From the NCBI GenBank assembly GCA_018000455.1, contig JAGNJW010000003.1, positions 1 through 64,000 of the forward strand: a stretch of 64,000 bases of DNA, read 5' to 3'. The notes under the pieces are model-generated. The model had not been told where the DNA came from. It made no database searches and saw nothing but the letters and a program-made list of their open reading frames with translations. Position 1 is the stretch's first letter. Each line of letters starts with the position of its first letter. Shown here piece by piece: positions 5,261 through 11,052 of the stretch. This DNA is from Acidobacteriota bacterium. Its GTDB lineage: Bacteria > Acidobacteriota > Vicinamibacteria > Vicinamibacterales > UBA2999. A program made the position numbers and the translations under genes.

Positions 5261-5701
5261 TCAGTGCACCACGCGGTGCGGCACCAGCGCCTTGACTGCT
5301 TCGTAGACCGCGTCCGGTGACGCGTCCGCCAACGCCAGCACGGTGTCGGGATGGGCCGCCGGCGCCGTGGCGGCGCGGCACACGGCCTGGCGCAGCAGGC
5401 GCTTGTCGCGTTCGGCGGCCATCCAGCCGGCCGTCACGAAGCCAATCCAGAAGAAGGCCAGAGCTTCAGAGGTCGTCGTCCTGCCGATCATCCAGGCCGT
5501 GGCGGCAGCGGTGGCGGCGGCAATCGTGGCGGCCGTCCCGATGGCGCCCAGCCGCCCCATCAAGGCGGCCCGTCCGGTGCCCGGTCCGAGCCGCGAGAGG
5601 GCCAGCCGCGGGCCACGCTGACGCGCCAGCCAGGCGCTGACGGCGCCTCCCGCCCCGCCGAGGCAGGCCACCCAGATCCACGTCGAGACGGTCAGATTCA
5701 T
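5261..5701 (-). CDS. Small membrane protein of unknown function
   Basis: The 146-residue protein begins at ATG 5701. Residues 7-25 are hydrophobic (WIWVACLGGAGGAVSAWLA). Two more likely membrane helices span about 50-70 and 76-92 (AATIAAATAAATAWMIG, ALAFFWIGFVTAGWM). The C-terminal 45 residues are hydrophilic and probably cytoplasmic. I recognise no family. It is divergent from the sigma-factor gene and could share its control region, but nothing ties it to that system functionally. Confidence 0.6.
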   Translation of the reverse strand: MNLTVSTWIWVACLGGAGGAVSAWLARQRGPRLALSRLGPGTGRAALMGRLGAIGTAATIAAATAAATAWMIGRTTTSEALAFFWIGFVTAGWMAAERDKRLLRQAVCRAATAPAAHPDTVLALADASPDAVYEAVKALVPHRVVH

Positions 5702-5896: not shown

Positions 5897-6499
5897 ATGG
5901 AACGGCATCCCTCCAGCGCACTACCGGGCGGCCCGCTGTCGAACCCGCCATCCGGGGAACTGTTGAACCGCGCGCGCGCCGGTGACGAGCGCGCGCTCGA
6001 CCGGCTGTTCGCCCGTTACGTGCCCCGCCTGCACCGCTGGGCCCACCGCCGCGTCCCGGTGTGGGCGAGAAGCGCCGCCGACACCGCCGACTACGTGCAG
6101 GAAACCGTGCTGCACACGCTGCGACACCTCGGTACGTTCGAACCGCAACGCGAAGGCGCGTTGCTCGGCTACCTCCGCCGTTCGCTCGTCAACCGCATGC
6201 GGGATCAGTTTCGCCATGCGGCACGCCATCCCGCCCCCGGCGAACTCAACGAGGGGATCGAAGACGGCGGCCGGTCGCCGCTCGATCAGGCCATTGGCGA
6301 GGAAGACCGCCAGCGCTACGAGGATGGTTTGAAGCGCCTGCGCAGCGCCGATCGCCGGGCGATCGTCGCCAGCATCGAGTTGGGGTACAGCTACGAGCAG
6401 ATTGCCCTGGTGCTCAACAAGCCATCCGCCGAGGCCGCGCGAGTGGCCGTGCGCCGGGCCTTGGTGCGACTCGGTGAGGAAATGAACCGTGGGTCGTAG
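5897..6499 (+). CDS. ECF-like RNA polymerase sigma factor
   Basis: The 200-residue protein starts at ATG 5897. Region 2 covers about residues 22-85 (RARAGDERALDRLFARYVPRL, then DYVQETVLHTLRHL, the core-binding helix). Region 4 covers about 140-197 (LRSADRRAIVASIELGYSYEQIA, a helix-turn-helix). The spacing fits a group IV sigma factor with only sigma-2 and sigma-4. Its stop overlaps the kinase start by 11 bases, so the two are translationally coupled. In several ECF groups of Acidobacteria and Planctomycetes the sigma factor is controlled by a co-encoded Ser/Thr kinase; the overlap suggests that arrangement here. No anti-sigma gene is seen. Confidence 0.88.
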   Translation: MERHPSSALPGGPLSNPPSGELLNRARAGDERALDRLFARYVPRLHRWAHRRVPVWARSAADTADYVQETVLHTLRHLGTFEPQREGALLGYLRRSLVNRMRDQFRHAARHPAPGELNEGIEDGGRSPLDQAIGEEDRQRYEDGLKRLRSADRRAIVASIELGYSYEQIALVLNKPSAEAARVAVRRALVRLGEEMNRGS

Positions 6500-9269
6500 C
6501 CGCAACGCGTTTCCCGACTCGCTCGCCACGGCGCTGGCCGACGGCGCCGCCATCGACTGGCGGGCCGCCGAAGCGGCGGCCGACGGGAGCCATGCCAACC
6601 TCGTGCGTCAATTGCGCGTGGTGGCCGCGATGCGCGAGCGGACGGGCGCGGCGCTTACCGCGCGGCAGCCCTGGCTGCGGCAGGTCGTGGTGGCCTCGTA
6701 CGGTGTGGCGGTGGCGCTGGCCGCAATCAAAGTCCTGATGGCGCTCGTGGCCGCGCCAGCCGTGCTCGGCCGCTTGACGGCGCCGTCGGCCGCCGTCCCG
6801 TTTGCGGTCAATGTGGCGATCTTCGGCGTCGGCGGCCTGCTGCTGCTGTGCGGCGGCGGCCGCGACCGGCGGCTGCAGTTGCTGGGGGGCCTCTATCTCA
6901 CCATCGCATCGGCGTTCGTCGGACCGTTTCTGACCCCGACGGCGGGTCAGGCTGGTGGGGTCGCCGGGGTGCTGGCCATGTGCCGGCCCGAGGCGTTTCT
7001 CGCCCTTGGGATGTGGCTCTTCGCCTGGGCCTTTCCCGGCGAGCCGGTCGGCCGGCGGGCACGAGGCGTCGCCCGGGTGATGATTGGAGTCGCCTGTGTC
7101 ACGGCCTGGCTGCTCTTCGTGGCCACGTTGGTGGGGGCGCAGCACGCCTGGCCGGTCGAGCACTCGCGAGCGCTCGCGGTGCTCGAGGCCTTCGATCGTC
7201 AGGCCCCGAGATCGATGTACTGGCCGGTGCTCCTGGCGACCATGCTGGCGGCCGTGCCGTTTCTGCTGGTGAAGGCCCGGGTCGAGACGGCCGAACGCCA
7301 GCGCAAGGTCTCGTGGTTCCTGGGCGCTCTGGCCGTGAGCCTCACGCCGATTCTCCTTGCCGCCATCGCGACGCCCTTCGTGCCCGCGCTGCGCGATCCG
7401 GCGGTGCGCCAGCGGGTCGGCCTCGGCCTGTATTTCATGCTCGCCTCGTTCGTGCCGATGACCGCCTACGCCGTGGGTGTGAATCGCGTGATGGACGTGC
7501 AGTTCGTCATCCGGGCCACGCTGCAATACGCCCTGGCGCGCTATGCGATCTGGGCCGCCATCCTGGGCCCGCTCACCTACCTGGCGTTGGACGTCTTCGT
7601 GAACCGCGGGCTCACGTTCCTCCAGTATCTCGACGCCCGGCAACCCACGGGTCTGCTCGCGCTCTCGGGGTTCGGCCTCGTGGCACTGACCTTCCGTCCG
7701 CACCTGGTCGGCGCCGTCGATCGCTGGTTCCTGCGCGAGCCGCTCGATTCCTCGCAGGCGCTGGCTCGCCTCGAGCACCGGTTCCGGGCCAGTGAGCACC
7801 TGCGCGACATCAGCGTCTCGCTGGCCGAGGAGCTGGCGCGCGCGCTGCACGCCGACGGCGTCAGGGTGCTGCTGCTGGCAGAGGACGGCGCCTCGCTCGT
7901 GGCGCCCGACGGGTCGGTGCCGGCCATCCCCAGAGACTCCGTGCTCCTCGACCTGCTGCAGTCGACGCGCAGCGAAATTCATCTCGACGCCCGCTCGGCG
8001 GTGGCGCGCCTGCTGCCGGAGTCGGATCAGGACTGGCTGGCCGACGCCGGCGCCGAGCTCCTGTCGCCGCTGATGGGATCGTCGGGCGCGCTGCTCGGGG
8101 TCGTGGCCATTGGGGCCGGGGCCAATCGCTTGCCCTACACGGAGAGCCACGTGTCGCTCGTGACCACCATGTGCGGTCACGCGGCACTGCAGCTCGAGAA
8201 CCGGTGGCTGCGGCAGTCACAGGAGGCCGCCGACCGCCGGCCGGTACATCGCGCCGATGGCGTGGCCTGGCAGGACGAACCGGCCGCCTGCTGTCCGAAT
8301 TGCTCCGAGGCCTGGAGCCCCGACACCCGGCGCTGCCGATGTGGCGGCATCACCAAGCCGGCCGTGCTGCCGCTCTTCGTGAACGCCAAGTTCCGCCTGC
8401 AGCGGTTTCTCGGCGCCGGCGGCGCCGGCGTCGTCTACCTCGCCACCGACCTGGCCCTCGACCGCAAGGTGGCGATCAAGACGCTGCCGCCCATGCGCCG
8501 GGAGTTTGCGACGCGCCTCAGGCGCGAAGCGCGGGCCATGGCCTCGGTGCGCCACCCGAACCTGGCGACGATCTGGGGCACCGAGGAGTGGCATGACACG
8601 CCGCTGCTCATCGTCGAGTATCTCGAGGGCGGCACGCTGCTCGACTGGCTCGAGCGCGGTCCGCTGGCGGTGGATGAGACCCTGGACCTCGGCATCATGC
8701 TGGCCGACGTGCTCGACCGCATACACGGATCTGGTGTGCTGCATCGCGACATCAAACCCAGCAATATCGGCTACACGGCCGATGGCGTGCCGAAGCTGCT
8801 CGACTTCGGGCTGGCGGCCATGCTCGACAGCTCCAAGGGGCCCGAGGCGGCTGCGGCGGTCATGCCGGTCGATCCAGTGGAGCTGGCGGCGCGCTTCCAG
8901 GGCGTGAGGGCCTCGTCGACGCTCACCATCACTCAACAGGTCGTGGGCACGCCGTTGTATCTTTCGCCCGAAGCGCTGGCGGGTTCGCCCCCGCAGGAGT
9001 CGTTCGACCTCTGGAGCCTGAACATGGTGCTCTACGAAGCGATCGCCGGGCGTCATCCGTTTGGCGGCCGCTCCGTGACCGAGGTCGTGGCGGCCGTGCA
9101 GAACACGTCCGTGCCGGATGTGCGGGATGCAAGGCCGGAGTGCCCGGCCGTGGTTGCCGCCCTCCTCAACGACGCGCTGTCGCTCGTGCCCACCAGGCGC
9201 CCGGCCACGGCGAGCGACCTGCGTACCCAGCTGCGGGGCCTCCGCGCCCGCCTCGATTCCGCCCGATAG
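6489..9269 (+). CDS. Membrane-bound Ser/Thr protein kinase with multi-TM sensor, GAF domain and zinc ribbon
   Basis: The 926-residue protein starts at GTG inside the sigma gene. Residues about 60-410 contain eight to ten hydrophobic helices. The GAF-like region (about 420-580) is preceded by the linker PHLVGAVDRWFLREPLDSSQ, which I know from Acidobacterial GAF histidine kinases and SpoIIE-type phosphatases. A zinc ribbon follows (CCPNC...CRCGG, about 600-620). The C-terminal kinase domain has a glycine loop LGAGGAGVVYLA (near 641), VAIK, HRDIKPSN (near 752) and DFGLA (near 772), so it looks catalytically complete. The kinase is at the C-terminus, behind a sensor module usually linked to other outputs. 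Likely role: phosphorylating the coupled sigma factor or a partner in response to a membrane or cytosolic signal. Confidence 0.9.
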   Translation: MGRSRNAFPDSLATALADGAAIDWRAAEAAADGSHANLVRQLRVVAAMRERTGAALTARQPWLRQVVVASYGVAVALAAIKVLMALVAAPAVLGRLTAPSAAVPFAVNVAIFGVGGLLLLCGGGRDRRLQLLGGLYLTIASAFVGPFLTPTAGQAGGVAGVLAMCRPEAFLALGMWLFAWAFPGEPVGRRARGVARVMIGVACVTAWLLFVATLVGAQHAWPVEHSRALAVLEAFDRQAPRSMYWPVLLATMLAAVPFLLVKARVETAERQRKVSWFLGALAVSLTPILLAAIATPFVPALRDPAVRQRVGLGLYFMLASFVPMTAYAVGVNRVMDVQFVIRATLQYALARYAIWAAILGPLTYLALDVFVNRGLTFLQYLDARQPTGLLALSGFGLVALTFRPHLVGAVDRWFLREPLDSSQALARLEHRFRASEHLRDISVSLAEELARALHADGVRVLLLAEDGASLVAPDGSVPAIPRDSVLLDLLQSTRSEIHLDARSAVARLLPESDQDWLADAGAELLSPLMGSSGALLGVVAIGAGANRLPYTESHVSLVTTMCGHAALQLENRWLRQSQEAADRRPVHRADGVAWQDEPAACCPNCSEAWSPDTRRCRCGGITKPAVLPLFVNAKFRLQRFLGAGGAGVVYLATDLALDRKVAIKTLPPMRREFATRLRREARAMASVRHPNLATIWGTEEWHDTPLLIVEYLEGGTLLDWLERGPLAVDETLDLGIMLADVLDRIHGSGVLHRDIKPSNIGYTADGVPKLLDFGLAAMLDSSKGPEAAAAVMPVDPVELAARFQGVRASSTLTITQQVVGTPLYLSPEALAGSPPQESFDLWSLNMVLYEAIAGRHPFGGRSVTEVVAAVQNTSVPDVRDARPECPAVVAALLNDALSLVPTRRPATASDLRTQLRGLRARLDSAR

Positions 9270-9352
9270 CCGCTCGGCTCGGGACTTCTGTACGAAATGG
9301 GACTCCCCGGCGTTCTCACCTGTAACGGCCTGCCCGTTTCCGAGGTGACTGA

Positions 9353-9703
9353 ATGCCGGTTGAGCACATCGACGCCATCCTGAACGACTGCCTGCTGGCG
9401 GCGGGCCAGGGCATCGGCACGGAGAAATCAGTGGATTTCGCCGTGGTGGCCTGGTGGCGCACCAGGTATCGCCGGTTCTTCCTGCACGCCATGACGGCGC
9501 ATGGCAACTCCTGGACAGCCGACCGGCACCGCGTCACGGCCGTAGGCCGCTACCTGGGCCAGCGCGCCCTGCACCATGCCGCCCAGTCGCCCTCGATCGA
9601 CCTGCACGCCGCGGAACTGGCATCGCACGACGTGGAAACCGGCTGCCAGATGAACGCCGTGCGCGAGGGCATCGGCCCCACCCTGCAGACCACCACCGCT
9701 TGA
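9353..9703 (+). CDS. Small protein of unknown function, tandem paralogue A
   Basis: The 116-residue protein has no signal peptide and I recognise no family. It is clearly homologous to the next gene: IDAILNDCLLAAGQGIG here matches VDAILDDCFLSIGQGIG there. Both continue with an aromatic/basic stretch (WWRTRYRRFFLHAMTAHGNSW against VRNNFRPKFLAAMRRFGNRW) and a shared TAVG...LG.RA segment. It follows the kinase by 83 bases and may belong to the same unit. The predicted fold is mostly helical. Two near-identical GGGACT hexamers 18 bases apart (9281 and 9299) lie upstream and could be promoter elements. Confidence 0.7.
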   Translation: MPVEHIDAILNDCLLAAGQGIGTEKSVDFAVVAWWRTRYRRFFLHAMTAHGNSWTADRHRVTAVGRYLGQRALHHAAQSPSIDLHAAELASHDVETGCQMNAVREGIGPTLQTTTA

Positions 9704-9726
9704 CGTTCGCACACACGGAGGTTTCG

Positions 9727-10218
9727 ATGACGACCGACACGACTCGCCAGCCCGTTCCGCCCGCTACGCTCGCCCACGGCTACGATGCTTCGTTCGCCGA
9801 TGCGCCCGATGAGACGTTGGCCCATGAGCAAGCCGTCGACGCCATCCTCGACGACTGCTTCCTGAGCATCGGCCAGGGAATTGGTCTCAGAGCCTCGCTC
9901 GACTACGACGCCGTTGTCCACGTGCGCAACAACTTCCGCCCCAAGTTCCTGGCGGCCATGCGGCGCTTCGGCAATCGGTGGCTCGAGGATCGCACGACGG
10001 TGACCGCGGTGGGGTGGATGCTCGGAGAGCGCGCGGTGCGCTACGCCGAGGGCGCGCCGTCGATCGGTCGCGACGCGATGATCAAGGCGTGTGCGGACGT
10101 CGAGCGCTACTGCCAGCTGCACGCCGCGCGGCGAAGCGGTGCCCGCGGGCGCCCAGCGACCGAAGCCGCGACGGCCATGATCGCGGGCTATTGGTGCACG
10201 TGGGAGCCGAAGGAGTAG
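9727..10218 (+). CDS. Small protein of unknown function, tandem paralogue B
   Basis: The 163-residue protein starts at ATG 9727 behind a good ribosome site (CGGAGG). It shares the DAIL.DC...GQGIG core and the TAVG...LG.RA segment with the preceding gene but carries an extra N-terminal tail of about 40 residues and a longer C-terminus (AMIAGYWCTWEPKE). It has no membrane segment. The pair is a tandem duplication between a sigma/kinase operon and a histidine kinase. A signalling role is possible, but nothing in the sequence shows the molecular function. Confidence 0.75.
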   Translation: MTTDTTRQPVPPATLAHGYDASFADAPDETLAHEQAVDAILDDCFLSIGQGIGLRASLDYDAVVHVRNNFRPKFLAAMRRFGNRWLEDRTTVTAVGWMLGERAVRYAEGAPSIGRDAMIKACADVERYCQLHAARRSGARGRPATEAATAMIAGYWCTWEPKE

Positions 10219-10296: not shown

Positions 10297-11052
10297 GTGT
10301 TGCATAAGCACGAGGACACGGACACACGAGTCGAGTCTCTTCGCCAACTGGTGGCGGGCACGGCGCACGATCTCAACAATCTTCTCGTGTTGGTCAACGG
10401 GTGCGCCGAGCTGGCCCTGACGGACGAGGCGTTGAGCCCGCGTGCCCGTCAGCTGGTGAAGGAGACCCTCGACGCCGGCGAACGCGCCACGTCGCTGACG
10501 CGGCGGCTTCTGTCACTCGGCCGGCCGCCGGCGCTACGGCCCGCGCGCGTCGACGTTGCCGCCCTGCTCATGTCGTCGGCCAGCCTGCTCGGCCGGCTGA
10601 TTGGCGACGGCGTCCGCCTGAAACTCGATGCCAGCGCGGCGCCGTTGTGGGTGCTCGCCGATACCAGCCAACTCGAACAAGTCATCGTCAACCTCGTGCT
10701 CAACGCGCGCGACGCCATGTCGGCCGGCGGCACGCTGGCGATTTCAGCGCGAGCCGTGACGCTTCAGAACGCGGGCACGAGCGACGCCGGGCGCACCTGC
10801 GGATCAGAGCGCGCCGCCCGGCTGACCGTGACCGACAGCGGCCACGGCATCGATCCGGCGGTACGCGACCGCATGTACGAGCCCTACGTCACCACCAAGG
10901 CGAGCGACAAGCACTCGGGGCTCGGGCTCGCCGTGGTGCGGGGCATCGTCGAACAACTCGGCGGCTCGATCGACGTCACCTCGACGGCAGGCAGCGGCAC
11001 CACCTTCACGATCGATCTGCCGTTGACGCCCGCGCCTGGCGCGTCAAGCTAG
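10297..11052 (+). CDS. Soluble sensor histidine kinase without sensor domain
   Basis: The 251-residue protein starts at GTG 10297 (TTG 10300 is also possible). It begins almost directly with the dimerisation/phosphoacceptor helix: LVAGTAHDLNNLLVLV, where the H is the likely phosphorylation site. The HATPase domain follows, with an N-box NLVLNARDAM, a G1 box VTDSGHGID, PYVTTK and GLGLAVVRG. The HDLNN type H-box is that of NtrB-like kinases. There is no input domain, membrane helix or adjacent response regulator, so it is an orphan that must rely on a partner for sensing. Lying beside the sigma/kinase block it might feed into it, but this is inference. Confidence 0.85.
   Translation: MLHKHEDTDTRVESLRQLVAGTAHDLNNLLVLVNGCAELALTDEALSPRARQLVKETLDAGERATSLTRRLLSLGRPPALRPARVDVAALLMSSASLLGRLIGDGVRLKLDASAAPLWVLADTSQLEQVIVNLVLNARDAMSAGGTLAISARAVTLQNAGTSDAGRTCGSERAARLTVTDSGHGIDPAVRDRMYEPYVTTKASDKHSGLGLAVVRGIVEQLGGSIDVTSTAGSGTTFTIDLPLTPAPGASS

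Follow-up and report, generated by a model that had tools for sequence, protein, structure and literature searches.

The small genes SP1 and SP2 are real, diverged tandem paralogues of a conserved unnamed family, not an artefact. We tentatively favor a reading in which a self-contained ECF sigma factor/Ser-Thr kinase cassette has them as its inducible output and in which they act as adaptor or feedback proteins on their own kinase. The window, that is, the whole 64,000-nucleotide stretch that was analyzed, contains the pair and its neighbors in the following arrangement.

5261..5701, − strand: TM, 146 aa, divergent from SIG and kept in relatives; membrane-like by eye
5897..6499, + strand: SIG, ECF sigma factor, 200 aa from the ATG at 5897; Sigma70_r2 E 3e-11, DTAD in region 2.2
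6489..9269, + strand: KIN, membrane Ser/Thr kinase, 926 aa; Pkinase E 3e-39, GAF_3 E 8e-7, membrane part by hydropathy
9353..9703, + strand: SP1, ORF of 116 aa, paralogue without the tail; 12 tandem orthologues, window included
9727..10218, + strand: SP2, ORF of 163 aa with a conserved C-terminal tail; AlphaFold2 mean pLDDT 81, core >90
10297..11052, + strand: HK, histidine kinase, the next gene after SP2; HATPase_c E 3e-23, HisKA E 4e-8

The paralogous pair, its tail and its predicted fold

SP1 and SP2 are separated by 23 nt and share 47% identity over about 103 residues (E 6e-23), and the tandem recurs in relatives. The preliminary description had presented them as tandem duplicated paralogues of 116 and 163 residues, which was borne out, and the shared segments it quoted, DAIL.DC...GQGIG and TAVG...LG.RA, were correct. 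Its proposal of selection on the common core also held: with L018 as reference, dN/dS was about 0.24 for SP1 (0.17/0.70) and about 0.24 for SP2 (0.22/0.90), and codon position 3 was the most variable. Both genes are under purifying selection relative to same-genus relatives. They were the sole copies found in their own 5.19-Mb genome, where a single-sequence search returned no third one, and hydropathy analysis revealed no strongly hydrophobic segment in either protein.

Profile searches placed SP in no well-known family. Matches were scattered in Pfam (E>0.02), NCBIfam (best E 0.016) and PHROGs (best E 0.02), the sole PADLOC matches were to the kinase domain of KIN, and a plasmid collection gave no match. 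The label of an unknown family is thus right as regards profiles, but the genes are not orphans, being preceded by SIG and KIN. The only PDB sequence match, to 7ue2_A RPB_PLP3_R6 (E 3.6e-6), presumably a designed repeat protein judging by its name, had no single stretch that passed and was taken as composition. No description of the SP family was found in the literature searched; sigma-kinase pairing is of a known kind, and the small-protein branch appears undescribed in that literature.

Conserved residues center on glycines and cysteines, and two features mark the C-terminal part of SP2.

10111..10113, + strand: SP2 Cys129, the first of the two paired Cys, where helix 4 ends; invariant in alignment A1, nearly so in A2
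10183..10197, + strand: SP2 tail motif A-G-Y-W-C, residues 153-157; AG[YT]WC in 12/12 SP2

Among 16 members, C129, G49, G53 and G82 of SP2 were invariant and C44 nearly so. The ends had been said to differ, which is true between SP1 and SP2, but the C-terminal end of SP2 is itself kept. The pattern Cys...G-x-aromatic-Cys closes SP2 and most distant SPs and is missing from SP1. An aromatic-Cys pair lay within the last 30 residues in 12/12 SP2, 0/12 SP1 and 10/12 KIN-linked diverged SPs, the last count covering 12 of 15 such proteins; in the three left out (L092 and both of L174) the pair is also there by eye. In the remaining two of the 12, L094 and L095, it precedes an added tail. By eye, the first Cys stood at or just past the end of helix 4 in 12/12 SP2 and in 10/12 diverged SPs, being absent from L051 and L172. 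Such paired Cys in a soluble protein suggest a metal, redox or docking site.

Structure prediction, which had been proposed as a check for a common fold, gave the same topology for SP2 and for the SP of L094, 22% identical to it in the alignment. The AlphaFold2 model of SP2 (27-row alignment) has helices at 26-52, 60-81, 85-107 and 115-138 and strands at 57-58 and 112-113. The AlphaFold model of the L094 SP (mean pLDDT 86) has helices at 5-27, 42-58, 69-93 and 103-118 and strands at 37-38 and 100-101. Both follow the order alpha-beta-alpha, hinge, alpha-beta-alpha in a single chain, with strands of two residues each; since the L094 alignment holds three SP2-type rows and one SP1 row among its 23, the models are not fully independent of each other. 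Foldseek against the PDB returned nothing at E<=0.001 for either model, and a viral fold library gave nothing significant for the SP model. VIA comparison, confined to Foldseek candidates (201 for the SP2 model, 322 for the L094 model), ranked the Methanopyrus kandleri histone 1f1e first for SP2 (Z 6.7, rmsd 3.3, 91 aligned), followed by AAA+ C-domains, and proteasomal Rpt C-domains first for L094 (Z 6.7 at best), H2A.Z-H2B pairs ranking lower; these Z values, up to 6.7, are below the line under which the tool urges caution with helical bundles and may reflect a common helical arrangement. In a search for internal duplication at the sequence level, the two SP halves, aligned against each other with hhalign, gave P 0.055 over 9 columns.

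The AAA+ C-domain is described as four helices forming two successive helix-strand-helix units with a hinge (PMC1847821). The SP models share this order with the helical lid, and small residues are conserved in the second unit (SP2 G100, A103, A121); unlike the AAA+ C-domain, SP is free-standing, has no ATPase domain and shows no sequence match to it. The SP fold is predicted to be AAA+ C-domain-like in topology, and no descent is claimed.

It is very improbable that SPs are bacterial histones or nucleoid proteins, even though 1f1e heads the VIA rows of the SP2 model. The double histone fold proteins 1F1E, 1WWI and 1R4V carry paired helix-strand-helix units in one chain, the role of the bacterial ones being described as unclear (PMC13088155), and the SP chain also contains paired units. 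However, SP is one unit of four helices arranged in C-domain order rather than two interleaved three-helix histones, both proteins are slightly acidic (pI 6.7 for SP1 and 6.1 for SP2), AAA+ C-domain rows lie within 1 Z, and no histone-family match was obtained. Histone family PF00808 was absent from the genome of the window, and the control search detected it in 3/14 control genomes.

The sigma factor-kinase cassette and its probable promoter element

An ECF sigma factor is encoded together with a Hanks-type kinase here and in relatives. Beyond a long, hydrophobic N-terminal half, KIN carries a GAF domain, what by eye is a Cys4 ribbon (CPNC...CRCG), and a Ser/Thr kinase domain. Region 2.2 of SIG and its relatives reads D-T-x-D in 27/28 rows and ETAD in one, with one locus counted twice among the 28 (L093, L171). 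For TM, no Pfam match was obtained, and no segment was picked out by hydropathy at a cut-off of 1.6. HK follows SP2 in 5/12 tandem loci.

The adjacency of SIG and the transmembrane kinase gene KIN resembles the ECF43 pairs EcfP-PknT of Vibrio parahaemolyticus and EcfK-PknS of Xanthomonas citri, whose sigma and transmembrane Ser/Thr kinase genes also adjoin; in the parts of these descriptions available, the acidic DxxD of region 2.2 is replaced there (QTTA/STTA), with a phosphorylatable Thr in third place, and SP-like proteins are not mentioned (PMC8999054, PMC13147305). In contrast, SIG and its relatives retain D-T-x-D, so the ECF43 model, with phosphorylation supplying a missing charge, does not simply apply, and an ECF43 phospho-switch for SIG was rejected on this motif. 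KIN also differs from the ECF43 kinases by its long hydrophobic N-terminal part, GAF domain and Cys4 ribbon.

Two copies of a promoter-like element were located in the window.

9289..9314, + strand: ECF-type element TGTAC-N17-CGTT before SP1; 12/12 loci, single strict match in the genome
5783..5808, − strand: second copy, directed at the divergent TM gene; zero-mismatch match in the looser genome search

In form, TGTAC/CGTT with 17 nt spacing corresponds to an ECF promoter. Every KIN-SP1 gap among the 12 loci contained [TC]GTAC-N17-CGTT (0.003 expected from shuffled gaps), with 36-46 nt between the end of CGTT and the SP1 ATG (38 nt in six loci, 39 in three). A spacer of 17 gave 29 matches in 610 kb, and the other spacers from 10 to 29 gave 1 to 22. 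The strict form YGTACSRR-N14-CGTTYT matched once in the genome of the window, at SP1 (backward control, 1), and 29 times in 12 relatives (backward control, 1). This locus accounts for 22 of the 29, one of which sits on a separate G034 contig bearing the start of KIN. A form with other ends, allowing <=1 mismatch, gave 12 matches in the genome of the window compared to 4 in the control. Its three exact matches were those at SP1 and TM and one inside a short ORF on contig C4, the last probably by chance. The element upstream of SIG that faces TM was found in 7/11 SIG-containing loci (window, L018-L021, L024, L088), and a further copy stands before SP2 in 4/12 (L021, L022, L052, L053).

Because the element is present in 12/12 loci and has its sole strict genome match here, SP1-SP2 look like SIG output; the co-occurrence of SIG and the element suggests that SIG may bind and use TGTAC-N17-CGTT. 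The earlier view that the function finds no explanation in the sequence was incomplete, since the neighboring SIG and KIN, the upstream sigma-type element and the SP2 tail motif can all be read from it and together narrow the function of SP considerably.

Two of the seven off-locus strict matches look real by extended match, at 1482 of L221 (G003:C178) and at 1784, reversed, of L222 (G004:C68). The L221 element stands ahead of a short ORF similar to sigma region 2, whose Pfam E of 0.03 misses the cut-off.

Distribution of the family and the genes around it

SP was found at one locus in a contig search among close relatives only, in 8/59 genomes (its own included) by single-sequence search, and in 14/162 genomes of the order by profile search with alignment A1. 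Twelve of these 14, from four families (f1, f8, f11, f12), carry tandem SP1-SP2 behind KIN, and the other two (G495, G496) have a single diverged SP after KIN. SIG was present at every locus where the retrieved stretch extends that far; in G007 and G034, KIN is truncated by a contig end. In the tree, the 12 SP1 formed one clade (support 0.85) and the 12 SP2 another (0.82), and these two monophyletic groups point to one old duplication that predates the split of the four families.

The same-genus genome G003 carries a natural deletion of SP1-SP2 (L088, G003:C100), in which SIG, KIN and the TM-gene element are kept while the pair and the middle of HK are gone and KIN runs nearly into the HK remnant. 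Another SP lies beside a second KIN-like gene in this genome. The cassette can therefore persist without a local SP1-SP2 pair, which also counts against SPs being anti-sigma or partner-switch factors that hold SIG and release it upon KIN phosphorylation. Small soluble helical proteins beside an ECF sigma factor and a Ser/Thr kinase would suit such a role, but SP matched no anti-sigma family in Pfam or NCBIfam and a separate promoter element for the pair lies behind KIN, and we judge this role unlikely.

The first 417 residues of KIN matched in 34/162 order genomes and 45/396 phylum genomes, some genomes being counted in both sets. Diverged SPs lie upstream of KIN in G246, G408 and G059, and downstream in G005, G427, G255, G495, G496 and the second copies of G001, G509 and G510. 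In G433, SP is convergent with KIN, and G113 has two SP copies, one of which adjoins KIN on the opposite strand. Dismissal of an antisense-looking match in L092 as an artefact was rejected, the match being a real SP convergent with KIN. Among KINs with an N-terminal match at E<=1e-12, 25/28 had SP within about 0.3 kb (a hand count, with the cut-off picked after the data were seen); the three others were G003, where it is missing, G405, with the nearest SP several kb off, and G058. Weaker KIN-like loci had SP in 0/11 of the stretches retrieved.

Profile A3, built from 15 members, detected SP in 26/162 order genomes. One or more copies are KIN-linked in 18 of these, and the remaining eight include an SP-like subgroup without adjacent KIN (L163-L168, L170, L171) with the signature RLPDIAL.EC..ELRAACRLPI. 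The next gene is TonB-dependent receptor-like in several of these loci, and that of L163, the only one searched against Pfam, matched Plug, beta-barrel and CarboxypepD_reg; in L170, an ECF-sigma-like ORF follows by eye. This lineage away from KIN implies that the SP domain can work without it. The whole-genome surveys covered Acidobacteriota genomes, and a plasmid collection was searched in addition.

Two loci showed unusual SP contexts. In L169 (G036:C70, 2117-2935), a single frame fuses a piece of the KIN membrane part with an SP-like domain whose end reads GLWCESA, as would result from deletion of the kinase part. In L172 (G408:C66, 3284-4027), upstream of KIN, the SP domain follows an N-terminal stretch of ~125 residues that is beta-rich by eye.

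Genes downstream of SP differ between species and include cysteine peptidases, a radical SAM operon and a lipase-like gene. In L024 (G055:C40, 10119-15408, reversed), four radical SAM genes in a row, two HxsC-like and two SPASM-type, directly follow SP2 behind a copy of TGTAC-N17-CGTT. A papain-family peptidase gene follows SP in L094 (6036-6969, Pfam E 1e-14), a weak C39-like gene below the Pfam cut-off in L090 (5417-6661), and a relative of the latter in L091 (4961-5500, reversed; E about 1e-7). The corresponding gene in L162 is C39-like by eye, with no Pfam match and a non-significant similarity to L090 (E 0.11). In L053 (4905-9557, reversed), SP2 is directly followed by a gene for an apparently membrane-spanning protein of 1550 aa with no Pfam or NCBIfam match.

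These neighbors bear on whether SP2 is a peptide precursor, with the 100-aa domain as leader and the C...GYWC tail as a core that is modified and cut. The persistence of the tail in very diverged members, the L024 radical SAM genes under the same element, and the peptidase genes after SP in L094 and, more weakly, L090 and L091 would fit. However, radical SAM genes follow SP2 in only 1/12 tandem loci, no modifying enzyme adjoins the window pair, the same short motif recurs everywhere, unlike variable cores, and SP1 has no tail. We give this possibility little weight, slightly less than the anti-sigma role.

The variable neighbors also bear on whether SP1-SP2 are themselves payload, that is, an end-product of the sigma regulon (e.g., stress-protective or client-binding) without feedback on KIN, with the cysteine peptidases, radical SAM operon and lipase-like gene as further payload. 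A dedicated SIG-type promoter is as compatible with payload as with a feedback protein, and SP-like proteins without KIN ahead of TonB receptor-like genes point the same way. On the other hand, the tight SP-KIN adjacency, with SP sometimes ahead of KIN and once on the other strand, argues against it. We consider a payload role somewhat doubtful in itself and nearly as likely as the adaptor/feedback role, which we favor because SP stays by KIN while the downstream genes change.

Proposed circuit

In the adaptor/feedback reading, the membrane kinase KIN would sense a signal and activate SIG. SIG-RNA polymerase would then transcribe SP1-SP2, as well as TM in the divergent direction, from TGTAC-N17-CGTT, a step that is well supported though not proven, and these genes may make up nearly the whole SIG regulon. 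As supported by the two models, SP1 and SP2 are each predicted to fold into one small, soluble domain in which two helix-strand-helix units take up the AAA+ C-domain/histone-pair arrangement, where pairing of the strands can create a binding site. The most likely role of SP2-type proteins would be to bind KIN, or else SIG, and adjust its activity as adaptors or feedback partners, the paired-Cys tail being a putative docking, metal or redox site. SP1 would be an old tail-less duplicate that may pair with SP2.

More broadly, and rather speculatively, a broad family of AAA-lid/histone-like proteins, free-standing and equipped with a paired-Cys tail, could be the dedicated third partner of sigma/membrane-kinase switches across Acidobacteriota, induced by the sigma factor and feeding back to the kinase through metal or redox chemistry of the tail. 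If true, ECF sigma factors would here be controlled in a new way that differs both from anti-sigma factors and from direct phosphorylation of sigma alone. To our knowledge, a regulon or feedback partner is known for few of the ECF sigma factors linked to a kinase. With a probable promoter, regulon and co-inherited small-protein family legible from the genome, an orphan kinase-sigma pair becomes a testable circuit, and a family of hypothetical proteins gains a place, a predicted fold and a tail motif to mutate.

KIN residues 8-56 (window 6510-6656; ADG..IDW..AE...L.RQLRV) alone matched other acidobacterial kinases, several of them encoded behind a sigma gene, and this segment is perhaps a sigma-contacting tail.
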